Positions 12,028 to 26,584 of a stretch of DNA of 38,915 bases are shown here, in pieces. The DNA is taken from NCBI GenBank assembly GCA_016202645.1, contig JACQOF010000009.1, positions 1 through 38,915 of the forward strand, in the 5' to 3' direction. A model generated the notes under the pieces. That model saw only the letters and a program-made list of their open reading frames with translations, ran no database searches and was not told the origin of the DNA. The stretch is from a bacterium (GTDB lineage Bacteria; Lindowbacteria; 2-12-FULL-62-27). A program made the translations under genes and the position numbers. The stretch's first letter is position 1, and every line of letters starts with the position of its first letter.

Positions 12028-14028
12028 TCAATAATGAGCGGGGTCTATTTTACAAATCGTATAAAACCGGTTTTGAAAAACGATAGGCAGTTCAAAGCGC
12101 TGTTTCAGTGAGTTCTGGTACACGGCATACGCGACTCGCGGGTATGTTTTCCCGATGCGGCGGATCGTCTCCGGGGGCAGATCGGAAAAACGGGCGGACA
12201 GATGTGCGGCGCGCTTCGACGCCGTCCTGGGTTTGAATTCCGAGATCGTCAGCGTCAACGCTTCAAAGCGATTCATGATTTCCTCATAGAGAAACGGGTT
12301 CATCCGCATGAAGGATACGTCCGCCCACTCAAAAAAAACGTCCCGTCTGGCATGCGTCCGAAATCCGACCAGAAGCGGGTCGACCAGAAATTCCGCGTCC
12401 TTCGGTGTGCTCCGGTACGCCCAGTCCTGGACATCCCGGAAGGCCTGAATCTTTTCGTCGCGGGCCAGGCGGCCGGTACACTGCTCGGCGCTTTTGGCCA
12501 GGCAGAGGCCCACCATCAAACCCACGAGGATCATCCGCCCGGCGCCGGGGAGATCGTTCCGAATCAATTCTGGAATACCCGCGCCGGCCGCCATTCCGAA
12601 GACGACCACCCCGATCTGCCACGGCTCCAGCGGCAGGTAGGAACCCAGATAGAGAAAACTGAATATGCGCGAAACCGGAAACGGAAGCCTGTCCGCCGGG
12701 AGAGCAACCGCGGCAAGCGGCAGGACAAAGGCAACCAGCGACAAACCGATGCGCCACCCCCGCGCCGCCGCATTTGATGGATGTCCGGAACGGGTCAGAT
12801 AAAGCTCGACCAAAATCAGCCCGATGGGAATCACAGGCAGGGCGTCCTGCGAGAAAAATGTGGCGCACAGTATCCACGCCGCCAATCCCCGTGTATAGAT
12901 CCCGGAACCGGGGTTGACGATGAAGGCGTACAACACGAAAAAAAATGGGACGATCAGCAGAACCGTCAGCGGCGAAAACGCCCGGAACGGGCCGAATTTG
13001 ATGACCGCGAATACGGGGAAAATTTCGACGAAAACAAACGCAGCGGATAGAAAAACCAGGTAGGTAACGGCCAGCACCCTGAATATTTTTTGCCGGTCCG
13101 CATCCGGACGCTGAGCGCCGGCCGGATCAGCCGCTCCGCGGCCCCAAGTGCCGGCGCCTCCGGCGCCGGCCCAGCTCATAGCCAGGAGTAGCAGAAAAAC
13201 CAAATACCTGGACGGATGCCACTCGCTCGGATAGGAGTGGTGAGGCTCCCGGATTTTCAACATTTCGATTACCTGGTCGATCGGCGCCGCGCCCCAGTTG
13301 GCGTACGATCCCATGGGCGTTGGCAGAATAAAGATCAGGTAGGGCAGGGATCCGACAAGTCCGGCCAGGAATGACGTCCAGAAAATTCGCGCGAGATTCG
13401 GATTTGATTTTTCCTTCCAGAGAACCGCCAACGGGATCACCGCCAGGGACACGGCCGCATAGCCGGGATGGGCGCACAGAGTCAATCCGATGCAGAACCC
13501 CGCCCACGGATACCGGCCGGCCATCAGCGCGGCCAGCGTCAGCATCGAACACGCAACGCCGTAATATGCGACCAGCAGAGACCGGGTCGTCTGCGCATGG
13601 TAGGCCGGGCCCGACATGGCGGCGTCCGAAAAAACAAAATAGGCTGCCGCCAGCACGGGCAACCACGGATCGGGGTGCTTCCAAGCCCTGGCCAGGGCGT
13701 AGATTCCGCACACACTCAGAAGAATCAGCAGAAACCCCATGGATTCCATCAGGATGTTCGGATCGACGTGACAGGTTCGGTACAGCCAGGACGGAAGGAG
13801 AGCGTAGAAGGTCGGCCAGTTCGAAAAGAAACCTTCGCTGTAGTGATCCAGAGAAATCTCACCCGCGTCAAAATAGACTTTTAACAGAACTTCCTCAACC
13901 GTCGCGCTCTGTTTCAGGTAAAAATCGCCCTGTTGGGAAAAATAAGAAACCGCGGTCAGGCAGAGCAACAGGAGCGCCGCGCGCCGAAACGGGAGCGCGG
14001 GTGGATTCGGGGCGCCTTCGATTGACAT
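12028..14028 (-). CDS. Large multi-pass membrane protein, GT-C-like, unknown function
   Basis: A 666-residue integral membrane protein with roughly 11-13 hydrophobic helices. The first is at about residues 17-32 (AALLLLCLTAVSYFSQ), and the helices are followed by a soluble C-terminal domain of about 130 residues with Arg, Glu and Tyr. An acidic loop after the first helix and many membrane spans recall GT-C glycosyltransferases that use lipid-linked sugars, but I see no diagnostic motif and the family is unknown to me. The start is ATG at 14028 (MSIEGAP); a GTG at 14100 would add 24 residues that look non-coding. The loop at about residues 310-320 (GAGTWGRGAADPAG) is encoded by the 33 bp dispersed sequence. 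It is divergent from the aminotransferase gene and may supply the membrane step for that cluster (inference). Confidence 0.75.
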   Translation of the reverse strand: MSIEGAPNPPALPFRRAALLLLCLTAVSYFSQQGDFYLKQSATVEEVLLKVYFDAGEISLDHYSEGFFSNWPTFYALLPSWLYRTCHVDPNILMESMGFLLILLSVCGIYALARAWKHPDPWLPVLAAAYFVFSDAAMSGPAYHAQTTRSLLVAYYGVACSMLTLAALMAGRYPWAGFCIGLTLCAHPGYAAVSLAVIPLAVLWKEKSNPNLARIFWTSFLAGLVGSLPYLIFILPTPMGSYANWGAAPIDQVIEMLKIREPHHSYPSEWHPSRYLVFLLLLAMSWAGAGGAGTWGRGAADPAGAQRPDADRQKIFRVLAVTYLVFLSAAFVFVEIFPVFAVIKFGPFRAFSPLTVLLIVPFFFVLYAFIVNPGSGIYTRGLAAWILCATFFSQDALPVIPIGLILVELYLTRSGHPSNAAARGWRIGLSLVAFVLPLAAVALPADRLPFPVSRIFSFLYLGSYLPLEPWQIGVVVFGMAAGAGIPELIRNDLPGAGRMILVGLMVGLCLAKSAEQCTGRLARDEKIQAFRDVQDWAYRSTPKDAEFLVDPLLVGFRTHARRDVFFEWADVSFMRMNPFLYEEIMNRFEALTLTISEFKPRTASKRAAHLSARFSDLPPETIRRIGKTYPRVAYAVYQNSLKQRFELPIVFQNRFYTICKIDPAHY
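13124..13170 (+). repeat. 33 bp dispersed sequence inside a gene, copy 2, plus adjoining hairpin
   Basis: Bases 13124-13156 match 5731-5763 at 31 of 33 positions. They overlap a perfect 9 bp stem, GCCGGCGCC (13150-13158) with GGCGCCGGC (13162-13170), around a three-base loop. In the host gene, read on the minus strand, the block encodes a Gly/Ala-rich hydrophilic loop between membrane helices. That is where an inserted short element could be tolerated. Confidence 0.6.
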
Positions 14029-14039
14029 ATATGGGGATG

Positions 14040-14069
14040 TTGTTACATTCTGCCTTTTGGTTTTACAAT
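14040..14069 (+). promoter_or_regulatory. Candidate sigma70-type promoter for the aminotransferase cluster
   Basis: TTGTTA (14040-14045) and TACAAT (14064-14069) are separated by 18 bases and lie about 50 bases before the ATG at 14119. The -10 box matches consensus at five of six positions and the -35 at four of six. It is in the AT-richer gap between divergent genes, where a promoter is expected. No equally good candidate was seen for the minus-strand gene. Confidence 0.4.
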
Positions 14070-14118
14070 AGCGCGTGAATGGAGTTGATGACCACGTCAC
14101 AGATGAAACCGGAACGAT

Positions 14119-15561
14119 ATGCCTGATCCAAAACTATGGGGGCTTGAGGATGTCGAACGCCTTTCGGCGGACGGCATCCGGGATGTCCACGAAACACACG
14201 TCAATCCGGGCCAGCTCAAATATACCCGCATGCTCGGGTTTGACCGGATCCGGATTGACCGCGCCCGCGGCGCCCATTACTTCACGCCGGACGGAACACC
14301 CCTCCTGGATTTCATGGGCGGGTTCGGGTCGGTGAACATCGGGCATAACCATCCCCGCATTCTCGCGCTGAGCCGGAGATTCCAGGAGGCCCTGCACCAC
14401 GACATCTCGCAGACGTTCCTCTCCGCATACGCGGCGGGGTTGGTCCACAACCTCGCGGAACTCGCGCCCGGCGATCTTGATTTTGTTTTCCTCGGGAATA
14501 CCGGGTCGGAGGTGATGGAGGCCGCCATCAAGCTGGCTGAACAATATCAGGGCCCGGATCGGACCCGGACGCTCTACGCGAAGAACTCCTTTCATGGAAA
14601 AAGCAAAGGCGCTCTCTCCGTCACAGACTCGGCCCTTCTCCGCGGCCATTTTCGGCTGATCGAGGAACCGCCCGCTGTCCCATTCGGAGACGCCGATGCG
14701 CTTGAGGCCGCGCTCGCCGCCGACCCGCGGATCGGCGCGGTCGTGCTGGAAACCATTCAGGGCGGCGCCGGCATTGTCGTGCCGCCCGCCGGTTATTTCT
14801 CCCGCGTTCGGGACATCTGCAATCAACGAAAGGTCCTGCTGGTGTTGGACGAAGTCCAGTGCGGACTGGGCCGCACCGGAAAATTTTTCGCGTTTGAACA
14901 TGAAGGCATCATCCCGGACGTGGTTGCCGTCGCCAAATCTCTCGGTGGGGCCAAGGCCGCCGTTGCCGCGTACATCGCGCGGCGGGACGTCTATCTGAAA
15001 GCGTACGGAGATCCAAAAACCTCCATCATCCACGGGTTTTCAACATTTGGCGGGATGGGGGAGGGAAGCGCCATTGCGATGGAGGCCGTTAAAATCATTC
15101 ATGAGGAAAAACTGGCGGAGCGGGCCGGCCAGACCGGCGAATACCTGATGACCCGGCTAAGAGAGCTGAAGGACCGGTATCCCTCTCTCATCAAGGATGT
15201 CCGGGGACGGGGGCTGATGGTTGGCGTTGAGTTCCAGGGAATCGGGCATGCCACGTTGAGCGCGATCAAGCCCCTGGCCGCCATGCTGGATGATCGGCTC
15301 CAGGGCGGCCTGCCGGGATTGATCGGCGCTCTGCTCTGCGCGGATTACCGCATTGTCGTAGCCTTCACCGAATACAACCGGAACGTCATCCGCTTGGAAC
15401 CTCCCTTGGTGCTCCGGCGCGAGGACGTGGACTACTTCATCCAATGCCTGGATGCCCTCCTCTCCAAAGGTCCGGTCGGGCTTGTCATGCGGTTCATGGC
15501 GCGGCGGCAGAATTTCGACGCGCAGCCCATCGACACGCCTCCCGTACCGCCGAATGGATAG
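14119..15561 (+). CDS. Class III PLP-dependent aminotransferase
   Basis: A 480-residue fold-type I aminotransferase of the ornithine / acetylornithine / putrescine class, which transfers an amino group to an aldehyde or ketone end of a small molecule. The N-terminal part has LLDFMGGFGSVNIGHNHP, then GNTGSEVMEAAIKLA for phosphate binding, LVLDEVQCGLGRTG with the PLP Asp, and the Schiff-base Lys273 in VAVAKSLGG. FSTFGG follows. It carries a C-terminal tail of about 40 residues beyond the usual end. It heads a run of overlapping genes including a deacetylase, radical SAM and glycosyltransferase. It may therefore install an amino group on a sugar or lipid head rather than serve arginine metabolism; this is inference. 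The stop overlaps the next start. Confidence 0.9.
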   Translation: MPDPKLWGLEDVERLSADGIRDVHETHVNPGQLKYTRMLGFDRIRIDRARGAHYFTPDGTPLLDFMGGFGSVNIGHNHPRILALSRRFQEALHHDISQTFLSAYAAGLVHNLAELAPGDLDFVFLGNTGSEVMEAAIKLAEQYQGPDRTRTLYAKNSFHGKSKGALSVTDSALLRGHFRLIEEPPAVPFGDADALEAALAADPRIGAVVLETIQGGAGIVVPPAGYFSRVRDICNQRKVLLVLDEVQCGLGRTGKFFAFEHEGIIPDVVAVAKSLGGAKAAVAAYIARRDVYLKAYGDPKTSIIHGFSTFGGMGEGSAIAMEAVKIIHEEKLAERAGQTGEYLMTRLRELKDRYPSLIKDVRGRGLMVGVEFQGIGHATLSAIKPLAAMLDDRLQGGLPGLIGALLCADYRIVVAFTEYNRNVIRLEPPLVLRREDVDYFIQCLDALLSKGPVGLVMRFMARRQNFDAQPIDTPPVPPNG

Positions 15562-17206
15562 AACGGAATTCTACCGCCGGCATCTTTTCGAGGGAATTCC
15601 CCGGATCCTCTCCAGTCTCAACCGCGACCCCCTGTCGGACACCTACGGATGTTTCGACCGGCAGTATTGGTCCTGGTGCAGCGTTGATTTTCCGAACGCG
15701 GACCTTCAGCGCGGGGTCTATCCGCTCACGCGGGTCTGGCTCCTGGATGAACCCGGGAACCCCTACCACCGCCATCCCAAAATCCTCGAATGGATCGGCG
15801 CCGGTCTGGCGTTTTGGCGCAAGATCCAGCACCCAAACGGATTCTTCGACCAGTGGTACCCGAACGAACAAAGCGTCGGCACCACCGCATTCACGCTCGG
15901 GCCGGCCGCCGCCTGCGTCCGCGACTTGTCCGGCGCCCTGCCGCCGGATCTGACGGCGAGCCTTGTGGAAAGTTTCCGCCGCGCGGGAGATCGACTCTTG
16001 CGGCTTAAAGAAACGCACGGTTTCATTTCCAATCATATCGCCGGGGCGGCCTGGGCCTTGCTCGAAATCCATCGGCTCACTTCCGACGACCGCTACAAAC
16101 ACGGCGCGCGGAAACTTCTGGATGACATCGCCGCACGGCAGTCATCGGAGGGCTGGTTCAGTGAATATGGAGGGGCGGACCCCGGTTACGAGACTCTGGG
16201 CATTTCCTATCTGGCCAAATGTATCGCCCTCCTGCCCGATCCCGAATGGATTGTTCGGCTGGAACGGTCGATTGAATTTTTGAGTTATGCCGTTCATCCC
16301 AACGGTTCGGTGGGCGGAGAATACGGAAACCGCAACACGGAGATTTTTTTTGCGGCGGGCCTGGAAATGCTGAGCGACCGGGTACCGGCCGCCGAATCTA
16401 TTTTGGCGCGAATGATTTCCGATTCGGGAGTGAAGTTCCCCCGGCCCCACGAGGTCGATGCCTGCAATTTCACGGTCTTTCTGTCTCAATTCGCGGATGC
16501 CTACGCCTGCTCCAGGTCGAGATCTCATCGCCCGGCGCCGCCTCCGGCATTGCCGTTTCACAAGACTTTCGCAAAGGAATTCCCAGAGGCCGGCTGGTTC
16601 ATCCAAAGCACCGATACCTATTACGCCGTGGTCAACATCCGCAAGGGAGGGCTGATCAGACTCTACGACAAGAAAACCGGCAGGCTTGCCGACGGGGACT
16701 GCGGCCTCGCCGCCGCGGACGGCGACGGACGCTGGATCGTCACCCAGTCAGCGGCCGCGCGGGGTTCGGTCAGACATGAGGGCCCGGTTACAGTGTTGAA
16801 AGTCGAAGGCGACTTTCACAGGCCGCCAAACCGGCGGATGACGCCGGTGAAGTTGATGCTCCTGCGCGCCTTTGCATTGACGCTCGGCCGAACCGTGTTT
16901 TTCTGCGAATGGGCCAAACAGGCCATGGCCCGCGCCTTGATCCTCCGTCGGGAAACAGTTCCCGTTTCGTTCACCCGGGAGATTCGGTTGGAACCCGGAC
17001 AGGTCAGCATCACCGATGCGGTCCCGGGTGAAGGGCGACGCCGGATCCGGGAACTTTATCGAGTCCTCAAATCGACGCCCTTCTTTATGGGATCCGCCAG
17101 ATACTTCACCTCGCAGGAATTGGACCTCCGCCGAGAGGACCTGGAAAAACTGAATCTTGCGGATCAGCAATGGGTAAGGCGGATCGGGTTTCCGCAGAGT
17201 CCGTGA
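15554..17206 (+). CDS. Alpha/alpha-barrel protein A, polysaccharide-lyase-like (unknown function)
   Basis: A 550-residue soluble protein with no signal peptide. The first two-thirds are helical repeats consistent with an alpha/alpha toroid. The last third is beta-rich and ends with FFMGSARYF. It is clearly paralogous to the protein at 20781-22409: both have FDRxxWxW, PGNPYHRH, FDQWxPN, HGFxSNH, EYxGADPGYxTLG, YGxRxT and FMGSxRYF. The Asn-His pair in SNH, with Tyr and Arg further on, recalls the Asn/His/Tyr/Arg active sites of toroid polysaccharide lyases such as heparinase II/III and PL17. I infer a lyase-like or terpenoid-cyclase-like fold and cannot name a substrate. The frame is open upstream, but ATG 15554 overlaps the aminotransferase stop and is the natural start. 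Its end overlaps the next gene by 37 bases. Confidence 0.7.
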   Translation: MDRTEFYRRHLFEGIPRILSSLNRDPLSDTYGCFDRQYWSWCSVDFPNADLQRGVYPLTRVWLLDEPGNPYHRHPKILEWIGAGLAFWRKIQHPNGFFDQWYPNEQSVGTTAFTLGPAAACVRDLSGALPPDLTASLVESFRRAGDRLLRLKETHGFISNHIAGAAWALLEIHRLTSDDRYKHGARKLLDDIAARQSSEGWFSEYGGADPGYETLGISYLAKCIALLPDPEWIVRLERSIEFLSYAVHPNGSVGGEYGNRNTEIFFAAGLEMLSDRVPAAESILARMISDSGVKFPRPHEVDACNFTVFLSQFADAYACSRSRSHRPAPPPALPFHKTFAKEFPEAGWFIQSTDTYYAVVNIRKGGLIRLYDKKTGRLADGDCGLAAADGDGRWIVTQSAAARGSVRHEGPVTVLKVEGDFHRPPNRRMTPVKLMLLRAFALTLGRTVFFCEWAKQAMARALILRRETVPVSFTREIRLEPGQVSITDAVPGEGRRRIRELYRVLKSTPFFMGSARYFTSQELDLRREDLEKLNLADQQWVRRIGFPQSP

Positions 17207-18177
17207 CGCCCGGTTCCGCCAAACCGCTCGCCGCGGTCAGCATGGACGTCGATACGCTCACCACCTTGCTGGGCGACGCCTACACCGGGCCGGACGACAC
17301 CTTCTGCCGGGGACTCGAAACGTGCCTGACCGAATTGGCGCGATGGCGTCTGCCCGTGACGTTTTTTGTCGTCGGCCGGGATTTGTCCGCCGAGCCGGCC
17401 CGTCAGATCGTTCGGGAGATGGCGCAGGCGGGGCATGAAATCGCCAGCCATAGTTTCACGCACCCCCAGGGCTTCCGTCAGCTTCGACGGGATGAAAAGG
17501 AAATGGAACTTCAACGCGCCGAGGAATCCATCCACGCGGCAACCGGAAACGCTCCCGTCGGATTTCGCGCGCCGGGGTGGAACGTCGACAGTGAAACCAC
17601 GGCCATCCTGGCCGGCCGCGGATACCGGTACGACTCGTCGGTCTTCCCGACTCTTCTGGCGCCGCTCTTGAAATGCGCGCACTGGTGGGCCAACCGAACC
17701 CGCCCGCCCGCGGCGAGAACGACGCTGGGCGATCCCAACATCTTCCGGGCGCCCAGAACCGCCTATCGGCCGGACCGGGATCATATCTGGAAGCGGGGGC
17801 GCCTGCCGCTAATCGAGATTCCCATTGCGACCACGCCTTTCTGGCGGCTCCCCTGTTACGGCACGACGCTCTTCCAAATCGGAGAATCCAGGTTCCGGCC
17901 GCTCTATGACAGGATCCGGCGGGAATGTCTGGCGTCGGCGAGTGAGCCCGGACCCAGGCCGGCCTTTGTTTTCCAGATGCATCTGGCGGAATGGGTGGAT
18001 GCTCCAGCCGGCGGGTTGAACCGCCATCTTCGACCGGGCGCCCGAACATATATTCCGGCGGCATTGCGAATGCCGTTGGCCGCCAAGCGCGACATCTACA
18101 GACGTTTCCTCACCACCCTCTGCGGCGACTTCGACACGATTCTCATGAAGGATCTGGCCTCGAGGTTTGAAGGATGA
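17170..18177 (+). CDS. Polysaccharide deacetylase (NodB homology, CE4)
   Basis: A 335-residue metal-dependent deacetylase expected to remove N- or O-acetyl groups from a sugar. Motif 1 is SMDVDT with Asp26 and Asp28, motif 2 HSFTH with His94 and His98 as metal ligands, and motif 3 GFRAPGW with the Arg near 134. YDSSVFP and a late His in FQMHLAEW complete the set. There is no signal peptide or membrane helix, so it would act in the cytoplasm, perhaps on a nucleotide- or lipid-linked sugar. The size and the RAP motif resemble deacetylases in exopolysaccharide clusters. The start overlaps the preceding gene by 37 bases, and the following methyltransferase starts within or just after its end. Confidence 0.9.
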   Translation: MGKADRVSAESVTPGSAKPLAAVSMDVDTLTTLLGDAYTGPDDTFCRGLETCLTELARWRLPVTFFVVGRDLSAEPARQIVREMAQAGHEIASHSFTHPQGFRQLRRDEKEMELQRAEESIHAATGNAPVGFRAPGWNVDSETTAILAGRGYRYDSSVFPTLLAPLLKCAHWWANRTRPPAARTTLGDPNIFRAPRTAYRPDRDHIWKRGRLPLIEIPIATTPFWRLPCYGTTLFQIGESRFRPLYDRIRRECLASASEPGPRPAFVFQMHLAEWVDAPAGGLNRHLRPGARTYIPAALRMPLAAKRDIYRRFLTTLCGDFDTILMKDLASRFEG

Positions 18178-18196
18178 TACCATCCCTTCAAGACCG

Positions 18197-19033
18197 ATGA
18201 TGAAGACGCAGACGCAGGTCGGGAATCCAGGGAACCTGCCGACGAAGAAGGACGTTGAGTCGTTCTGGTCGGCCCATCCGTGCAGCGGGTCGAAATTCCG
18301 GACGATCGAGGAACTGCAGGATTACCGGTACCGCAAAGATCCGGTGATCCGGGTGTTCACCTCCGGGCTGGCCAAGTCCCCCGCCGACCGTGTGCTCGAC
18401 ATCGGATGCGGCCAGGGCGCCGATATTTCCGACACGCTGAAAAAGTATTCCGGAACATTCGGAGGGGACCTGTCATTTGTTTCGCTTAAAAACGCCCTGT
18501 CGTATAACCCCTCTCTCAAAGGGCGTATTGTCCGCTTTGACGCGGAAAATCTTCCCTACAAGCCCGCCAGTTTTCATGCGATCTACTCGCACGGCGTCAT
18601 TCACCACTCGCCCCATATCGCCCGCTCCGTCGCCGAAATTTTTCGCATCCTGAAACCCGGCGGAATGGGGCGGGTCCTGCTGTACAGCAAATATTCCCCG
18701 AAAGGCATGGCCGTTCGGTTCTGCCGAATTCTGTTCCGGTCGGAGGCCTTCCGGAGGCTTCTGCTGAGGTGTTTTCCCAACTCGGGCAGCGCCGTCGATG
18801 AACTGTTTTTATGCCCGGTCATGGACATGCACACCCGCGGAGATATCCGGCGGCTCTTCGAGAAATTCACCGGCGTCAAAATCGAGGCGTGGCATATCGG
18901 TCTTCAGCATATCCTGTTTTTGATGGGACTGTCGGATCAAAATTTCCTCTACCGGACAGCCGGATCCGTCGAGGCGGCGTTCGAGCGGGTATTCGGGTTC
19001 TACTGGATCGTAACATTTCAGAAACCCGCCTGA
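18197..19033 (+). CDS. Class I SAM-dependent methyltransferase
   Basis: A 278-residue methyltransferase with motif I VLDIGCGQGAD at about residues 66-76. An acidic motif follows (FGGDLS), then FDAENLPYKPASFHAIYSHGVIHH and the post-motif EIFRILKPGG. The region up to residue 50 contains FWSAHPCSGS, a pattern I have seen in front of methyltransferases acting on sugars or lipids in biosynthetic clusters. The substrate is unknown; a sugar hydroxyl, amine or carboxyl of the product made by this cluster is the simplest guess. A TTG at 18167 overlapping the deacetylase would add ten residues. ATG 18197 (or the adjacent ATG 18200) is chosen, but no clear ribosome-binding site decides. The promoter at 19042-19070 follows. 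Confidence 0.82.
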   Translation: MMKTQTQVGNPGNLPTKKDVESFWSAHPCSGSKFRTIEELQDYRYRKDPVIRVFTSGLAKSPADRVLDIGCGQGADISDTLKKYSGTFGGDLSFVSLKNALSYNPSLKGRIVRFDAENLPYKPASFHAIYSHGVIHHSPHIARSVAEIFRILKPGGMGRVLLYSKYSPKGMAVRFCRILFRSEAFRRLLLRCFPNSGSAVDELFLCPVMDMHTRGDIRRLFEKFTGVKIEAWHIGLQHILFLMGLSDQNFLYRTAGSVEAAFERVFGFYWIVTFQKPA

Positions 19034-19041
19034 CCGGTGGA

Positions 19042-19070
19042 TTGACTTACCCGGATGCGTGGGGTATAGT
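19042..19070 (+). promoter_or_regulatory. Strong sigma70-type promoter before the B12 radical SAM gene
   Basis: TTGACT (19042-19047) and TATAGT (19065-19070) are separated by exactly 17 bases; each hexamer matches consensus at five of six positions. It lies in an 87-base gap and leaves about 45 bases of leader before the ATG at 19121. This divides the cluster into an upstream and a downstream transcription unit, although read-through from the upstream genes is also possible. Confidence 0.65.
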
Positions 19071-19120
19071 TGGGCATTGTGGAAGAGGGGAATCCACATG
19101 AAGAGGAGCGTTGTTAGTAT

Positions 19121-20731
19121 ATGCTGCTAAAATCCAAAGAATTAAGCAGATTCAACCATCCGGCCATCACCAAAGCGGGGGGGCCCATCCGGGTTCTGAT
19201 TATCTTCCCGCCGTCCCACCGGTCTGTCCGGGCCATGTGGACCATCCATAACGAAACTGAGAATTCCTCCATCGGCGCCAAGCCGCCTTTGGGCCCCATG
19301 TTTATCGCCGCTTACATGAAAAAACATACCCCGCACGACGTCCGGCTCCTCGACTGCCAGGTTCTGAACATGAAAGACGACGGCATCCGCGAGGAAATCA
19401 AAAAATTCCGGCCGGACCTGGTTGGCGTCTGCGCTTGGACGGATTTCTGGTACGACGCCTGGCGCTGCGTTCAGATCACCAAGGAAGTCGACCCGAACAT
19501 TCACGTGACGGTCGGAGGGCCGCACGTCGGCATTTACCCGGACGTGACCCTGGAGAATTCCGGCTGTGATTCGGTCATCGTCGGCGACGGCGAGATTCCC
19601 TTCACATGGCTCGCCAACGGCCTCTCGAACGGCGAGATCCCGGACAACCTGCCGGGACTGCACATCAAGAAGGGTTCTGGCGTGAAACCCGCCGATGACC
19701 TGTTTTACATCCACGGAGACCTCGACTCGCTCCCATTCCCGATCCGGACGATGCTGCCCTACAAAAAATATTCAAGCGTGATCGACAAGGGCGATTTTGT
19801 CACGACGATGATCACCAGCCGCGGCTGTCCCTACAAATGCACGTTCTGCAAACTCTCCTTTCAGAAAACTCTTTCCCGCAGCGCCGAAAACATCGTGGAC
19901 GAAATGCAGGAGATATCCGACCTCGGAATCCGCGAGATACAAGTCTACGACGACACCTTCACCTGGTCGAAAAAACGCCTGGTCGACATCTGCAAGGGCA
20001 TCATCGACCGCGGTCTGAAGCTTGACTGGGCCATCCGGGACCGGGTGTCGAGCGCCACGCCGGAAACGATGGAGTGGCTGGCCAAGGCCGGGTGTACCCG
20101 GGTGCATTTCGGAATCGAGTCCGGTTCGAACAAGACCCTGAACACCATCAAAAAATCCATCACGGTCGAGCAGACCCTGAACGCCGTCAAGATCGCCAAG
20201 GAAAACGGGCTTCAGGTCCTGGGCTATTTCATGATCGGTCTTCCGGGCGAAACGGTCGACGACATGAAGGATACGTTCCGCCTGGCCAACCGCCTGGATC
20301 TCGACTACGTCACCTATTCGGTCACGGTCCCTTATGCGGGCACCGAGATGTACGAAGAAGGGTTGAAGACCGGCATTATTCCCGTCGACTACTGGAGGGA
20401 ATACGCAAAACAGCCGACGCCCAATTACGTTGTTCCCTATTTCTGGGAGGAATATCTCAATAAGGAGCAGCTTCTGAAAATGCGGGACGAGGGCACCCGC
20501 AAGTTTTATTTCCGGCCAAAATACATCTTCCGCGAAATTCGCAAGATATCGGGCGTGAAGGAACTCGTCCGGAAGGCCAGGATGGCCTTGAACGTCTTTC
20601 AGACCTCCGTCCTCGGCGAAGGCGAGGATATCTATCTGCAGTCGACCGCCGCGGAGATGGGCGCCGGCCGCTTGGGCGTGTCCGGGGGGTATGCCAACAA
20701 CGCGGCCAACCCGGTGTCGGTCCGCAGCTAG
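19121..20731 (+). CDS. Cobalamin-binding-domain radical SAM protein (BchE/HpnJ-like architecture), first copy
   Basis: A 536-residue enzyme with an N-terminal B12-binding-type Rossmann domain (about 20-165; VLIIFPPSH, PPLGPMFIAAYM, VTVGGPHVGIYPD, VGDGEIPF). The radical SAM core begins SRGCPYKCTFC, with Cys236, Cys240 and Cys243 binding the 4Fe-4S cluster. VYDDTFTW, HFGIESGS and MIGLPGET follow in the barrel. A basic C-terminal extension of about 90 residues (FYFRPKYIFREIRK) ends in a low-complexity tail. The DxHxxG cobalamin motif is absent, as in many members. Likely chemistry is radical methylation or ring or carbon-skeleton rearrangement; the substrate is unknown. The copy at 24151-25698 has the same layout and a similar tail. 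ATG 19121 lies behind the promoter at 19042-19070. Confidence 0.9.
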   Translation: MLLKSKELSRFNHPAITKAGGPIRVLIIFPPSHRSVRAMWTIHNETENSSIGAKPPLGPMFIAAYMKKHTPHDVRLLDCQVLNMKDDGIREEIKKFRPDLVGVCAWTDFWYDAWRCVQITKEVDPNIHVTVGGPHVGIYPDVTLENSGCDSVIVGDGEIPFTWLANGLSNGEIPDNLPGLHIKKGSGVKPADDLFYIHGDLDSLPFPIRTMLPYKKYSSVIDKGDFVTTMITSRGCPYKCTFCKLSFQKTLSRSAENIVDEMQEISDLGIREIQVYDDTFTWSKKRLVDICKGIIDRGLKLDWAIRDRVSSATPETMEWLAKAGCTRVHFGIESGSNKTLNTIKKSITVEQTLNAVKIAKENGLQVLGYFMIGLPGETVDDMKDTFRLANRLDLDYVTYSVTVPYAGTEMYEEGLKTGIIPVDYWREYAKQPTPNYVVPYFWEEYLNKEQLLKMRDEGTRKFYFRPKYIFREIRKISGVKELVRKARMALNVFQTSVLGEGEDIYLQSTAAEMGAGRLGVSGGYANNAANPVSVRS

Positions 20732-20780
20732 AGTCTTTCTCTCCCTGAATTTCCCCTTTCCTTTTCCGGCCTGATCCATC

Positions 20781-22409
20781 GTGAGCCTGGAGTTCTATCG
20801 CGGCCACCTGCTCGATCAGGCGCCGCTCCTGCTCAGCCACCTGGACCGTGAACCGTTTTCGCCCACGCTCGGAAGTTTCGACCGGCTTCACTGGGGATGG
20901 AGTGCGATTGACATTTCCAACGCCGATTTTCAGAAGTTCGCCCTGCCGCTGGCCTACCTCTACCTCCGGGATTTTCCCGGAAACCCGTATCACCGGCACA
21001 CCCGGCTTCTGGAATGGATCGAGTCGTCAATGCTCTTTTTATGCGCCGACCAGAACCGCAGCGGCGGATTTGATCAATGGCTTCCCAACGACAACAGCAT
21101 CGTATCCGCCGGATTCGTTTTCCACGACATCATTCCGGCGGCGGATCTTCTGAAGGAAGTATTGGACCGCGGGGTCCGATCGAAGCTGGAGGAAGCGGCG
21201 GGCCGCGCCGCGCGGCTGCTCGCGCGGCATGAGGAAAAACATGGGTTTAATTCCAACCACCAATTGGCAAACGCGGCGGCCCTCTACGACATCCACAGCT
21301 GGACCGGTGACGCGGCCTGTCTCGATCGCGCGCGGGAAATTGTCCGGGGGGTGCTCAAGCGGCAGGCGAAATCGGGGGCGCTCTTTGAATATGCCGGCGC
21401 CGACCCAGGTTATCACACGCTCGGAACGGCCTTCCTGGCCGCCTGTATGGAACGCGATACCGACTTTGCCTGGCACAAGGAATTTCGGGCGGCGGTGGAA
21501 TTTTCCTCTTTTTTTATGAGCGGCGTCACAGGTTCCGGCGGATGCTACGGCAGCCGGGGAACAAAATTACTGTATCCGTCCGGGTTCATCCTCGGCGCCG
21601 GACGGGGCGTCCGGCCGGATCTTCCGGCGAAAGTCGAGGATATTATCCGGCGCGGCCTCTGCGTGACGCCCCGGAATACAGACCTCACCAATTTGATCCC
21701 CCTCCTCAGCGATTATACGAGAGCGTGCCTTGTCCTGGAAAATCATCCCCAGAAAGCCGATAGGATGGACGGGCCGCCGACGGGGGACCTCTTCTGCGGG
21801 GAAACCACGATGTTTTCCCTGAAACGGGGCGCATGCCGCCTGCGCGGGCGGCTCTCCGGCGGGATGATTGAGATCGAATCTGAAGTCTCCCGCGCGCTGG
21901 TTTTTTCCAGCGCCGGGTATCTGGTGAGGACGGACCGGGGAAACGCCTTCACGGGAGTCCTCGACGGCCGCTGGTCGAGAGAGGGCGGCGTGATGACGTT
22001 CGAAGGCGAAGCCCAACTCACCAACCGGATCCGGCAGAGACCGTTTTTATATCTTTGTCTTCGAATCCTGTTTGTGTCCGTCGGAAACTGGATGCCCGCC
22101 AACCTCCTGATCAAACGAATCCTCGGCTGGTTGCTGATTTTTAAAAAACAGGGCGGCGGCGTCGATTTTCACCGCCGGCTGGAGGTTGGCGAATCGCGGG
22201 CCGTCATCACGGACCGGTTCAAAAATAACCGGTCCGCGCCCGTCCGAATCAGGCATTGCCGGGAGGGATACATGAATTTCATGGGGAGTTCGAGATATTT
22301 TGACCTGTCCCTCCTGGCGACGCCATCCCACAACCCGGACGACCGGGACGAGAAGTCCCTCAAGCCGGGCGAAACGCTCGAAGTCACCTATTCCCTGCCC
22401 CTAAGTTGA
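20781..22409 (+). CDS. Alpha/alpha-barrel protein B, paralogue of 15554-17206
   Basis: A 542-residue soluble protein that aligns end to end with protein A. Shared blocks include GSFDRLHWGW, PGNPYHRH, FDQWLPN, HGFNSNH, EYAGADPGYHTLG, YGSRGT and FMGSSRYF. The copies differ a great deal elsewhere, so the duplication is old and the two probably act on different substrates or in different steps. In the beta-rich C-terminal half, a hydrophobic stretch at about residues 425-455 (RPFLYLCLRILFVSVGNW) could dip into a membrane; protein A has a weaker one at the same place. No signal peptide is seen. The start is GTG 20781, 49 bases after the radical SAM stop; that gap has no visible signal. Function is unknown; a lyase-like role is inferred as for protein A. 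Confidence 0.7.
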   Translation: MSLEFYRGHLLDQAPLLLSHLDREPFSPTLGSFDRLHWGWSAIDISNADFQKFALPLAYLYLRDFPGNPYHRHTRLLEWIESSMLFLCADQNRSGGFDQWLPNDNSIVSAGFVFHDIIPAADLLKEVLDRGVRSKLEEAAGRAARLLARHEEKHGFNSNHQLANAAALYDIHSWTGDAACLDRAREIVRGVLKRQAKSGALFEYAGADPGYHTLGTAFLAACMERDTDFAWHKEFRAAVEFSSFFMSGVTGSGGCYGSRGTKLLYPSGFILGAGRGVRPDLPAKVEDIIRRGLCVTPRNTDLTNLIPLLSDYTRACLVLENHPQKADRMDGPPTGDLFCGETTMFSLKRGACRLRGRLSGGMIEIESEVSRALVFSSAGYLVRTDRGNAFTGVLDGRWSREGGVMTFEGEAQLTNRIRQRPFLYLCLRILFVSVGNWMPANLLIKRILGWLLIFKKQGGGVDFHRRLEVGESRAVITDRFKNNRSAPVRIRHCREGYMNFMGSSRYFDLSLLATPSHNPDDRDEKSLKPGETLEVTYSLPLS

Positions 22410-22424
22410 CTGTCTCCGGCGGTC

Positions 22425-23174
22425 ATGGTTTTATGCGCCATGGCTGATGTCAGGACGACCGACGTGTCCGTCGTCATTCCCTTTTATAACGAGGAGGACA
22501 CTCTCCCGACCCTGTTTTTCAAGCTGAACCTCCTCCTCAAAATGGGCAGCCTGACGCGGTACCGGCTCCGGTTTATTCTGGTCGATGACGGCAGCGACGA
22601 CGCGACCGGCGATATCCTCGACGCCACGTATCGGGATCAGCCGGACTTTCGCATCATTCATCACCCCGAAAACCGGGGATTCGGCGCGGCGCTCCGAACC
22701 GGCCTGGACGCGGCGGACGGGGACTTGGTGGTCACCATCGATGCGGACAGCAATTACAATCATCTGGCCATCTTCAAGATTCTGGACTGGATGAAAGACG
22801 GCGTCGACGTCGTCACCGCCTCCCCTTTCTATCCCGGCGGAAAATGGCATTACCCGGCGCACCGGTTCATCTTCAGCATCACCGCCGGCATGGCTTACCG
22901 CTTTGTTCTGGGAAATGGAATTCCCAGACTCTACACCTACACGTCCGGTTTCCGGGTGTACCGCCGGACGGCTCTCAAGGAAATCATGCCGACGGCAAGT
23001 GATTTCACGGCGACGGCCGAAGTCCTCGTGCGGGCCCTCATCCGGGGATTCCGGGTTTCAGAATATCCGACCATCGTCTATCCAAGGGCGTTTGGCTATT
23101 CCAAACTCAAGACCATGCGCACGACTTGGGCGCACCTCAAGCTCCTCTGGAAAGTCTTCCGACGACAGCTCTAG
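22425..23174 (+). CDS. Glycosyltransferase family 2 (dolichol-phosphate-mannose-synthase-like)
   Basis: A 249-residue GT-A enzyme that transfers a sugar from a nucleotide donor, probably to a lipid phosphate or a lipid-linked acceptor. VSVVIPFYNEEDTL is at about residues 14-27, ILVDDGSDD supplies a donor-binding Asp, ENRGFGAALRTG follows, and TIDADSNYN carries the DXD metal motif. TSGFRVYRR and a basic C-terminus come after. The protein ends without the paired C-terminal membrane helices of many DPM-like enzymes. ATG 22425 and the in-frame ATG 22440 (MADVRTTD) are both possible starts. It is 15 bases after the barrel B gene and 8 bases before the epimerase, so it is in the same unit. Confidence 0.9.
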   Translation: MVLCAMADVRTTDVSVVIPFYNEEDTLPTLFFKLNLLLKMGSLTRYRLRFILVDDGSDDATGDILDATYRDQPDFRIIHHPENRGFGAALRTGLDAADGDLVVTIDADSNYNHLAIFKILDWMKDGVDVVTASPFYPGGKWHYPAHRFIFSITAGMAYRFVLGNGIPRLYTYTSGFRVYRRTALKEIMPTASDFTATAEVLVRALIRGFRVSEYPTIVYPRAFGYSKLKTMRTTWAHLKLLWKVFRRQL

Positions 23175-23182
23175 CCTGACGG

Positions 23183-24154
23183 ATGCGCGTCCTCATCACC
23201 GGCATAAGCGGATACGTCGGGCGGAGCCTGGCGAGGGTCCTCAAGGCCCGGGGCCACGACGTTGTGGGGCTCGGCCGCTCTGCGAAGGGGGCGGGCGCGG
23301 ATGAACATTGGACGTTTGACCTCGCGCGGGATGATGTCGCTTCGCTCGCCGGGCGGAAATTCAGGCCAACCCACGTCGTGCATCTCGCCGGGGTCCTCGC
23401 TTTCAACCAGCGGGCGGGACGCGACCTCTTCGAAAAAACCAACATCGGCGGAGCCCAAAAAATGGCCGATTATTGTTTGAGCGTGGGCGCCAGACTGATT
23501 TATGTTTCAACGATGGGAGTTCTCTTCAGGAAAAATTCCGGCCAGCCGCGAAACGAGGACGCGCCCTATGGAATTCCGCTGAACTTGTACGGGCGGTGCA
23601 AGATGGCCTCGGAAGAGATGCTGAAGTCCGCCCAGGTGGAAAAGGGTCTCGAGGTAGCCATCGCGCGGTTTCCGGCGATCTATGGAGACGCCGCCTATAC
23701 GGCCGGCTGGAACAAGATCCTGCGCGACGCCGCCGACCGGAAATTTCCGCTGATCGGAAGCGGAGAATTTACCTGCCGGTTTGTCCACCTGAAAGACGTC
23801 ATCGGGCTGATCGAACGAATCTTGGAAAAATCCCGGTTTAAGGCCGAGGTCTATCACGGACTGTCGCCGGACCGCCTGACCTTTCGGGAATGGTTCGAAT
23901 CGGCCTCGCGGATTTTACGCGGGTCGGGCCAATTCAAGCGCCTGCCCGAAGCTCCCCTGCGGATGGCCTGCGGGGTTGTGTCCCTTATTCCGGAGGCCCT
24001 GCGGATCGGTCCCCTGGCGAATCTTCGTTCGGAAAATATCGATTACTTCACAAATCCACACGCCTACGAGGATCCCTTCACCCGGGCGTTTGGATATGTT
24101 CCGGTCGTCGGAATCGAGGAGGGATTGAACGAGTTGAAGTCGGGGAGAAATTAG
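23183..24154 (+). CDS. NAD-dependent epimerase/dehydratase (extended SDR)
   Basis: A 323-residue extended short-chain dehydrogenase with the nucleotide motif GISGYVGRSL at residues 7-16, HLAGVL, and STMG. The catalytic YxxxK is in LYGRCKMASEE. Enzymes of this family epimerise, dehydrate or reduce nucleotide sugars, and some are associated with hopanoid and other lipid pathways. The C-terminal substrate domain here gives no clear assignment. Its TAG stop (24152-24154) overlaps the stop of the convergent radical SAM gene, leaving no room for a terminator between them. Confidence 0.88.
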   Translation: MRVLITGISGYVGRSLARVLKARGHDVVGLGRSAKGAGADEHWTFDLARDDVASLAGRKFRPTHVVHLAGVLAFNQRAGRDLFEKTNIGGAQKMADYCLSVGARLIYVSTMGVLFRKNSGQPRNEDAPYGIPLNLYGRCKMASEEMLKSAQVEKGLEVAIARFPAIYGDAAYTAGWNKILRDAADRKFPLIGSGEFTCRFVHLKDVIGLIERILEKSRFKAEVYHGLSPDRLTFREWFESASRILRGSGQFKRLPEAPLRMACGVVSLIPEALRIGPLANLRSENIDYFTNPHAYEDPFTRAFGYVPVVGIEEGLNELKSGRN

Positions 24155-25698
24155 CCGAAAGCGGCGGCGCCCTGCCGGAGCTCGTAGGTCAGCCGGTTGA
24201 CCTGCGGTTCCGAGATCGGCATATCCAGCAGATCCTCTTCCTTAAAATTCTTCCAGTATCCCCATTTCGGCGTCCTGTACCAGATGGCGCCGATGATGAG
24301 CATGCTGAACGCGTTGTAGAGATCCTTGATGTGCCGGAGAGTCCCGATGCGCTTGAGCTGTCTCAGGAGCATTTTCGGGCGGATGTAAAACCGGCGCCAC
24401 GCGTATTTTTCGAAATCATAGATGTCCTGGGGCGTGAGCGTGTCCAGTTTCACGATCACCTGGCCCTGGCCATAGTCGTGCCAGTTTTTGTGGAGGAGCA
24501 TGCCCCGGGGATCGGCGTAACTGTAGAGCTGGGTCCCGGGATAGGGCGTGTTGATGTTGAGCTGAAAAATGTCGACGTCCAGTTCAATCGCGAAATTGAG
24601 GGTCGCCCGCATGGTCTCGAATGTTTCCCCCACGTTTCCGATGATGAAAGACGCGCGAACTTCCAGGCCGTTGTCGTGCGCGGTCTTCACGGCCTTGTGG
24701 TACCGCTCCTTGTTGATCGGCTTCTGGATGACTTTCATGATCTCCTCGTCGCCCGTCTCAATCCCCATCAAGACCTGGTGACAGCCGGCGGCCTTCATCG
24801 CCGCCGCCATCTCATCGTTGAAACAATCGCCGCGGACGTAAGCCGTCCACGTCACGTCCACTTTGTCTTCCACCATTTTTTTGCAGAACCGGAGCACCAC
24901 CTGCTTGGCCACCGTGAACGTGTCGTCATAGAACATGACTTGCCGGATCCCGTGTTCGTAGCGGAGCATCTTGATCTGCTCGACCACCCGTTCCGGCGAA
25001 CGCCAGCGGAGGGTGGTGAAGGCCGAGTTGCAGAAGGTGCACTGGCCGGGACAGCCCCGGGTCATCAGCATGTTGATGGCCGGGAGGTTTCGATAGGAAC
25101 CCGCGGCCGGAAAATAATTGTCGAAATCGATGAGGTGATAGGCCGGGAAGGGAAATTTGTCGAGGTTCATTTCGACCGGGCGGGGCGGATTGTGCCGGAC
25201 CGTCATGCCCTCCCGGTAACTCAGACCCAGTATATCGGTGATGGGTTTGCCGGAGAGAATCTCCCACATCGCGTCCTCGCCGTCGCCGCGCACCACCAGG
25301 TCGACAGCGCTGTTGCGGAGCATCCGCTCCGGCATCGCCTCCGCGTGGACTCCGCCGACAACCACCGTGCAGTCCGGCACCTCGCGCTTGACGATCCGGG
25401 CGATGGCATGGGCCGGGATGGACATATTGGTCAATACGGCAATTCCGACGAACCTTGGTCGGGCCCTGGCCACCCGCTCGGCGACTTCCTTTTCGTCCAG
25501 CCGCTCCGCGTGTACGTCCACAATACCCACCCGGTACCCCTTCGATTCCAAGTATGACGCAATCGACAGGACACCGAGCGGCGGCAGGTTGTTTTGGAGA
25601 ATCGCCCGTTTCTCCAAAGCCGCCCAGGGTGGATAGATGAGGAGGACATCCAGACGGCCGTCTCCCTCAGGCTTGGGTTTATCTGCAGAAGTGTTCAT
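24151..25698 (-). CDS. Cobalamin-binding-domain radical SAM protein, second copy
   Basis: A 515-residue enzyme with the same architecture as the one at 19121-20731. The B12-type domain (VLLIYPPWAA, PPLGVLSIASYL, VVVGGVHAEAMPE) is followed by the radical SAM core TRGCPGQCTFC, with Cys216, Cys220 and Cys223. MFYDDTFT, LMGIETGDEE and IIGNVGET follow, then a basic C-terminal extension (FYIRPKMLLRQLKR). The product is unknown; radical methylation or C-C bond chemistry on a lipid or sugar is the usual range. ATG 25698 (MNTSADK) is chosen because GAGGGCGTT precedes it; a TTG at 25728 would overlap the glycosylase gene. It lies 26 bases after the DNA glycosylase gene on the same strand and may be co-transcribed with it, while converging on the epimerase. 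Confidence 0.9.
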   Translation of the reverse strand: MNTSADKPKPEGDGRLDVLLIYPPWAALEKRAILQNNLPPLGVLSIASYLESKGYRVGIVDVHAERLDEKEVAERVARARPRFVGIAVLTNMSIPAHAIARIVKREVPDCTVVVGGVHAEAMPERMLRNSAVDLVVRGDGEDAMWEILSGKPITDILGLSYREGMTVRHNPPRPVEMNLDKFPFPAYHLIDFDNYFPAAGSYRNLPAINMLMTRGCPGQCTFCNSAFTTLRWRSPERVVEQIKMLRYEHGIRQVMFYDDTFTVAKQVVLRFCKKMVEDKVDVTWTAYVRGDCFNDEMAAAMKAAGCHQVLMGIETGDEEIMKVIQKPINKERYHKAVKTAHDNGLEVRASFIIGNVGETFETMRATLNFAIELDVDIFQLNINTPYPGTQLYSYADPRGMLLHKNWHDYGQGQVIVKLDTLTPQDIYDFEKYAWRRFYIRPKMLLRQLKRIGTLRHIKDLYNAFSMLIIGAIWYRTPKWGYWKNFKEEDLLDMPISEPQVNRLTYELRQGAAAFG

Positions 25699-25724: not shown

Positions 25725-26531
25725 TCAACTATGCAAGAAAGCCCGGCCGATTTTCAGTTTCTTCCACGACCGGATCGTCTTAAAAAAGGAACGGCGATAA
25801 AGCGGGCACGCGGGGCAGTCCGGGCGGACACGGTGACAGTAGCGCTTGCCGGTTTCGACGATCTGGGCGTGGTAGTCGTTGAAGAGGGGGGCGCCGGCCG
25901 GAAGATTTTTTTCGAACCACAATCGCACATCATCGTAGGGTTCATCGCCCCGGATCCATCCATGCCGGGAGAAAATCCGGCGGGTGTAGGCGTCGACGAC
26001 GAAGATGGGTTTGTCGAGCGCGTAGAGAAGGATCGAGTCGGCGGTTTCCGGGCCAATGCCGTTCACTTCAAGCAGTTTTTCCCGGGCGACGCCAAGCGGC
26101 TCGCGCAAGAGGCCTTCCAGTTCCCTGCCGCCTGATTTCCAATCATCCAGAAACGCCAGGAATGCTTTCAATTTTTTTGCTTTCTGATTGAAATATCCCG
26201 ACGGCCGGATCATCCGCGCCAGGCGGCCGCGCGGGATTCTCCGCAATCCCTCCCCCGACAGCATGGCGGCGCGGTGAAGGTTCACCAGCGCCTTGGACAC
26301 ATTCGCCCACGCCGTATTCTGCGTGAGGATCGCGCCGACGGCTACTTCAAACCGCTGACGCGCCGTGAGGCGTTTGCGTTTCGGATCGTACACCGGCCGG
26401 TCCTCCGGGCCCGCGCCCGGCCTCAGCACCGGCCACCACCCGCGCGGGCCGTGGGCGCGTCGCAGGGCCTGATAGATTTTTTTCAGGAGCAGGGTGTTTT
26501 CAGCAGGGTTTACAGATCCCATCGCGGGCAT
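25725..26531 (-). CDS. Endonuclease III / MagIII-like DNA glycosylase (HhH-GPD)
   Basis: A base-excision-repair glycosylase of about 268 residues. The core has VAVGAILTQNTAWANVSKA, the helix-hairpin-helix LLEVNGIGPETADSILLYA, and the catalytic Asp in FVVDAYTRRI. The Lys that gives EndoIII its lyase activity is Glu here (GIGPETA versus GxGxKTA), as in monofunctional 3-methyladenine glycosylases such as MagIII. The C-terminal cluster loop has only three cysteines (CHRVRPDCPAC); no fourth follows. A complete 4Fe-4S site is therefore not evident. Several starts are possible (TTG 26552, ATG 26531, ATG 26522) and none has a clear ribosome-binding site. It is divergent from the DUF2075-type gene. 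Confidence 0.85.
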   Translation of the reverse strand: MPAMGSVNPAENTLLLKKIYQALRRAHGPRGWWPVLRPGAGPEDRPVYDPKRKRLTARQRFEVAVGAILTQNTAWANVSKALVNLHRAAMLSGEGLRRIPRGRLARMIRPSGYFNQKAKKLKAFLAFLDDWKSGGRELEGLLREPLGVAREKLLEVNGIGPETADSILLYALDKPIFVVDAYTRRIFSRHGWIRGDEPYDDVRLWFEKNLPAGAPLFNDYHAQIVETGKRYCHRVRPDCPACPLYRRSFFKTIRSWKKLKIGRAFLHS

Positions 26532-26584
26532 GCAATCAGAATCGACAGGCAACCGTCAAGAACTCAGGGGTTCCCTGGGGACGG

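Follow-up and report, generated by a model that had tools for sequence, protein, structure and literature searches.

Organization of the Gene Cluster

The window analyzed here, i.e., the whole stretch of 38,915 bases, is a complete contig of a draft genome of 2.9 Mb that is ~82% complete. Housekeeping genes occupy both its left flank (TCA cycle, glycogen and DEAD-box helicase genes) and its right flank (DNA glycosylase, Schlafen-type helicase, histidine, FtsY and riboflavin genes). The following genes lie between them:

12028..14100, minus strand: polytopic membrane protein with a C-terminal DUF6798 (PF20604, E 2e-7), candidate GT-C-type transferase
14119..15561, plus strand: class III PLP aminotransferase (PF00202, E 3e-80)
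15554..17206, plus strand: barrel protein A, predicted fold an alpha/alpha toroid with a beta-sheet domain
17170..18177, plus strand: NodB-type carbohydrate deacetylase, CE4 (PF01522, E 2e-17)
18197..19033, plus strand: SAM methyltransferase (PF08241, E 3e-16); coordinates from the ATG, TTG start at 18167 possible
19121..20731, plus strand: B12-binding radical SAM 1 (PF04055 and PF02310)
20781..22409, plus strand: barrel protein B, a fast-evolving sister of barrel A
22425..23174, plus strand: soluble GT2 of the dolichol-phosphate-mannose-synthase/ArnC type (PF00535, E 8e-32)
23183..24154, plus strand: SDR-type sugar epimerase/dehydratase/reductase (PF01370, E 2e-30)
24151..25698, minus strand, convergent: B12-binding radical SAM 2, HpnJ/BchE/AprD4-like; TTG start at 25728 possible

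The first-pass annotation had described nine of these genes, from the aminotransferase to radical SAM 2 (14119-25698, or to 25728 with the TTG start), and all nine were present and intact, in the order and on the strands given there. It had left out the polytopic DUF6798 membrane protein, which is probably a tenth member of the cluster. The start of this protein is probably the ATG at 14028, 90 bp from the divergently transcribed aminotransferase gene. The description of the genes as mostly overlapping was overstated: overlaps of 8, 37 and 4 bp were found, and the remaining junctions are gaps of ~8-87 bp. A DNA glycosylase gene (25725-26552, minus strand) leads straight into radical SAM 2, which lies on the same strand, and a shared transcript is possible.

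The translations carry intact-looking signatures, namely the AKSLGG lysine, MDVD/HSFTH/RAP, the GT2 DAD as well as the SDR GxxGxxG and YxxxK, and both radical SAM proteins possess B12-binding and radical SAM domains with the CxxxCxxC motif. The aminotransferase is nearest to the C-terminal half of PigE and to putrescine aminotransferase. The nearest NCBIfam model for the NodB protein is the XrtA-system deacetylase, with a score under its cut-off, and the closest solved relatives of the GT2 include DPM synthase (5mlz) and ArnC.

A comparison of composition across the window revealed the same GC and GC3 in the cluster as in its flanks. By composition, the cluster is thus resident chromosomal DNA, and a recent foreign island is not supported. 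LpxC and several Wzy_C proteins are encoded on other contigs of the genome; the host is therefore probably a diderm with further glycan loci, and outer-membrane acceptors are plausible.

Predicted Fold and Conserved Residues of the Barrel Proteins

The barrel family is the most interesting element of the cluster. Neither barrel A nor barrel B matched a Pfam or NCBIfam family at E 0.001, and no transmembrane or hydrophobic signal segment was predicted in either of them. An AlphaFold2 model of barrel A, calculated with 14 relatives as input, reached a pLDDT of 86 and a pTM of 0.90. Comparison of this model with the PDB by Foldseek gave 78 matches at E <= 0.001, and the best 39 of these 78 were all polysaccharide lyases or dermatan-sulfate epimerase, including hyaluronate, chondroitin AC, xanthan, alginate and heparin lyases as well as the human dermatan-sulfate epimerase. 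These matches had E values of 1e-5 to 3e-8 and a probability of 1.0, with a TM-score of ~0.5 and an rmsd of ~6-10 Å over both domains. The predicted structure of barrel A thus has the polysaccharide lyase/dermatan-sulfate epimerase fold, with the toroid and the beta domain that are common to the barrels and to the superfamily of PL8, PL12, PL15, PL17, PL21, PL33 and DS-epi1. Searches of the PDB with a barrel sequence profile gave exo-heparinase (6lja, E 0.018) and DS-epi1 (6hzn, E 0.11), and with a larger profile the matches were weak ones of toroid type (complement C4, E 5e-4), exo-heparinase reaching E 0.07. Because the sequence profiles give no more than a hint of lyases and epimerases, the relationship of the barrels to these enzymes is placed at the level of the fold.

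Alignment of the family revealed four invariant residues (N160, E204, D209 and Y212 in barrel A numbering, 34 of 34 relatives), an arginine R260 present in 32 of 34, and either His or Gln at position 161. Similar Asn/His-Tyr-Arg sets occur in PL8 and in heparinase III. The candidate catalytic residues were placed by motif and spacing, and on this basis N160/H161, Y212 and R260 may correspond to the catalytic sets of the lyases and epimerases. The spacing in barrel A is also similar, since 52 and 51 residues separate N160 and H161 from Y212, and the catalytic His205 and Tyr261 of DS-epi1 are 56 residues apart (PMC8006597). A conserved counterpart of the beta-domain His of heparinase II and dermatan-sulfate epimerase was absent from the barrel family. 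The barrels further differ from the PL/DS-epi1 superfamily in having no Pfam sequence family, a length of ~550 amino acids with no predicted membrane or signal segment, and genes that lie within polyprenyl-phosphate sugar modules.

Both the barrels and the radical SAM enzymes had been regarded as pairs of paralogs. This holds for the barrels, which are sister paralogs in the tree (support 95/87). Barrel B forms a long branch but keeps the conserved Asn, Glu, Asp, Tyr and Arg. The two radical SAM enzymes belong to different subfamilies in the tree, which rules out a local duplication of their genes.

Distribution and Genomic Context of the Barrel Family

The barrel family profile was found in 27 of 386 sampled genomes (~7%). 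A pattern search added barrels in archaea (Borrarchaeum, Woesearchaeota) and in further bacteria (Nealsonbacteria, Bacillota, Bdellovibrionota, Pseudomonadota and Chloroflexota). Neighboring genes were counted within 6 kb of 39 barrel loci, 0.38 Mb of flank in total. A flippase-like UPF0104/LPG-synthase-TM gene (PF03706) was present at 14 of the 39 loci, whereas ~0.3 would be expected from the background of 79 matches in ~93 Mb of 26 genomes. A GT2 gene was present at 22 of 39 loci (a raw count), an asparagine-synthase-type amidotransferase at 10, a methyltransferase at eight, a NodB deacetylase at six and a nitroreductase at four. Barrel relatives form trios in the exact order GT2-barrel-UPF0104 at several loci, and these recall the flippase-like UPF0104/GT2 pairs of polyprenyl-phosphate sugar systems; the cluster in the window differs from these in having no UPF0104 gene. 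The barrel family is thus strongly associated with polyprenyl-phosphate sugar genes.

The expectation that barrels and B12 radical SAM genes would share conserved neighborhoods was mostly not borne out. They are neighbors at five of 39 loci, of which three belong to a single class, against ~1.1 expected from 270 B12-binding genes in ~93 Mb (~2.9 per Mb). This is a modest excess, and the two genes as a conserved unit are unsupported. In three genomes of the class concerned (L055, L056, L083), the barrel, an asparagine-synthase-type amidotransferase and a B12 radical SAM gene are neighbors, and the two full-length barrels among these loci diverge most within the family.

In the tree, the nearest relatives of the window barrels are L041, L042 and a proteobacterial/Bdellovibrionota group. 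L041 and L042 are both accompanied by NodB, and L042 additionally by an SDR, an amidotransferase and a GT2. In two genomes of the same family as the host (G001, G002) the barrel homolog is located elsewhere. At the loci of the two same-family genomes (L033, L034) the match covers the N-terminal part of the barrel only, and these partial barrels adjoin an alpha/beta-hydrolase-like gene, in one case inside an 866-aa ORF.

Other associations were seen at individual loci. In four unrelated lineages (L019, L023, L024, L075), the barrel has a nitroreductase-family gene immediately upstream or nearby, which at L075 carries a fused methyltransferase domain. At L027, L029 and L053, from three lineages, the barrel is closely preceded by the gene of a conserved protein of ~300 aa (starting ...IILGHNPFFG...), and at L027 and L053 an oxidoreductase-like gene comes before that one.

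Radical SAM Enzymes and the DUF6798 Protein

Radical SAM 1 and its orthologs form a supported clade (99/96). At L070/L071 the ortholog belongs to an Arn-like operon with a LegB-like dehydratase, a PseC/ArnB-like aminotransferase, an ArnD-like deformylase (176 bits), an AglJ/PpgS-like GT2, an ArnA-like formyltransferase and a flippase-like protein. At L069 it lies in tandem with a relative of radical SAM 2, with a deacetylase and a TMEM260-like O-mannosyltransferase nearby. The direct sister of radical SAM 1 in the tree is part of a single ORF (L091:2934-6080) in which a carbamoyltransferase is fused to an enzyme of this clade, and a DUF6798 gene follows it. Clade members L072 and L073 have no glycan neighbors. 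Literature searches on radical SAM glycan genes together with either heparinase or carbamoyltransferase yielded no papers.

The best NCBIfam match of both radical SAM enzymes was HpnJ, with 181 and 214 bits where the cut-off is 578. Radical SAM 2, which gave the 214 bits, lies below the cut-off of every NCBIfam model; its closest solved relative is AprD4 (6fd2, E 3e-23), and the AprD4 model scored 103 bits (cut-off 500).

The 386 genomes yielded two detectable homologs of the DUF6798 protein, each adjacent to a B12 radical SAM gene. The radical SAM enzyme beside DUF6798 at L089 matches radical SAM 1 weakly (24%, 57 bits), and in G001 the DUF6798-radical SAM pair lies on a contig other than that of its barrel homolog. 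The protein has nine TM-like windows. Its model, built from three sequences, had a pLDDT of 39, too low for use of the fold, so that the candidate GT-C role is based on topology and neighbors.

Comparison With Arn and Hopanoid Pathways

The cluster resembles the Arn system (ArnB, ArnC, ArnA, ArnD, ArnT) in that both contain an aminotransferase, a polyprenyl-phosphate GT2, a NodB-fold deacylase, an SDR enzyme and a polytopic membrane protein. It differs in that its aminotransferase is of class III rather than DegT, the window has no formyltransferase, and the barrels, a methyltransferase and a second as well as a first B12 radical SAM enzyme are added. Membership in the Arn system was rejected by the model cut-offs, since the ArnC model scored 62 against 529 bits and the ArnD model had no match.

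The similarity to hopanoid genes suggested in the first-pass annotation stands for the enzyme logic and falls for membership. HpnI is a glycosyltransferase, HpnK a deacetylase and HpnJ a radical SAM enzyme, and all three work on lipid-linked glucosamine (PMC12583986); the logic of glycosyltransferase, deacetylase, B12 radical SAM and, with HpnO, aminotransferase is common to both. The cluster has a different type of GT2 and no hopene cyclase, and a squalene-hopene cyclase (PF13243) was not matched anywhere in the ~82% complete genome. The HpnA model scored 48 against a cut-off of 368, and HpnI and HpnK were not among the NCBIfam matches. Within the limits of an 82% genome, hopanoid membership is refuted by the cyclase search and the model cut-offs, and the analogy is therefore mechanistic only. 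Overall, the logic is like that of Arn and of HpnI-HpnK-HpnJ, and the carrier in the cluster would be polyprenyl phosphate.

Proposed Pathway and Alternative Explanations

Each component of the cluster is of a known kind; Pfam and NCBIfam contain no entry for the barrel family, and the full set was not found in the sample. The earlier proposal of a candidate new glycan pathway gains support from the barrel relatives, which accompany polyprenyl-phosphate sugar genes, and from the radical SAM 1 orthologs, which accompany aminosugar genes. On balance we lean toward a cytoplasmic pathway that makes a modified amino/uronic sugar on a polyprenyl-phosphate carrier. In such a pathway, an amino sugar would come from the joint action of the SDR and the class III aminotransferase, the soluble GT2, judged by its family, would load a sugar onto polyprenyl phosphate, and the NodB protein would be expected from its family to strip an N-acyl group. 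Barrels A and B, as their fold and conserved residues suggest, might remove the proton at C5 of a uronic residue, leading to epimerization or, less likely, to elimination. Alkylation or rearrangement of the sugar could be the task of the methyltransferase and both B12 radical SAM enzymes, and the divergently encoded DUF6798 protein is a candidate transferase that may pass the finished sugar to a lipid, glycan or protein outside the membrane. The data show the gene content, the barrel fold as modeled, the conserved residues, the UPF0104 enrichment and the radical SAM 1 clade with its contexts; from them we infer the individual reactions, the substrate, the order of steps, epimerase over lyase activity, the GT-C role of the DUF6798 protein and the union of all ten genes in one pathway. 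Among the results that count against this reading, no sampled genome contained the full gene set, and a class III aminotransferase recurred at 0 of 39 barrel loci.

An alternative is that at least two unrelated modules lie side by side, i.e., a barrel-GT2 glycan module, a radical SAM-DUF6798 module and an independent aminotransferase. The rarity of barrel and radical SAM genes as neighbors (5/39 loci), the separate positions of the barrel homologs in G001 and G002 and of the DUF6798-radical SAM pair in G001, and the lack of a recurrent partner for the aminotransferase all fit it. Yet eight genes on the same strand are joined by overlaps or gaps of <90 bp, radical SAM 1 sits between two sister barrels, and the barrel part and the radical SAM part each independently indicate sugar modification, which makes this arrangement unlikely. 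Slightly less unlikely is that the barrels are lyases, trimming enzymes or catalytically dead binders that serve quality control or shortening of a glycan and are not epimerases. Most of the fold matches are indeed lyases, and the catalytic evidence is at the level of motifs. Still, neither barrel has a TM or hydrophobic signal segment, and the family is located in synthesis and export modules; moreover, the authors of the DS-epi1 structure noted that minute active-site changes can decide between lyase and epimerase (PMC8006597).

Two further products were considered. Class III aminotransferases serve aminoglycoside synthesis, and AprD4 is the closest solved relative of radical SAM 2, so that this enzyme and the SDR reductase could deoxygenate a sugar which the aminotransferase then aminates to yield a small aminoglycoside-like product. 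The AprD4 score far below its cut-off, the absence of resistance or export genes from the cluster and the polyprenyl-type GT2, which points to a lipid-linked sugar, render this improbable. A lipid head-group pathway of the HpnI/K/J/O type, on a hopanoid or another terpenoid, is the least probable of all and is largely refuted: a glycosyltransferase, a deacetylase and an aminotransferase are present and HpnJ is the best match of both radical SAM enzymes, but every hopanoid model is absent or far under its cut-off, the genome as assembled yielded no cyclase, and the GT2 is DPM-synthase-like.

Within the favored polyprenyl-phosphate pathway, we tentatively suggest for the barrels, as a reading that is itself rather doubtful, a widespread, undescribed prokaryotic cytoplasmic family that epimerizes uronic residues on polyprenyl-linked sugars, a biosynthetic counterpart of the animal glycosaminoglycan epimerases that in this cluster is coupled to a pair of B12 radical SAM enzymes. 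The cluster contains no uronic-acid-making sugar-nucleotide dehydrogenase, which counts against the favored pathway. The bacterial-eukaryotic history of glycosaminoglycan epimerase chemistry is still open (PMC8006597), and if the barrels are a biosynthetic relative of these epimerases, they would offer a concrete and testable source for that chemistry. A family with no Pfam or NCBIfam entry yet, occurring in Bacteria and Archaea and in ~7% of the sampled genomes, adjoins the genes that load and flip polyprenyl-phosphate sugars, and the radical SAM 1 clade, in which a fusion with a carbamoyltransferase occurs naturally, suggests that envelope sugars undergo radical chemistry.
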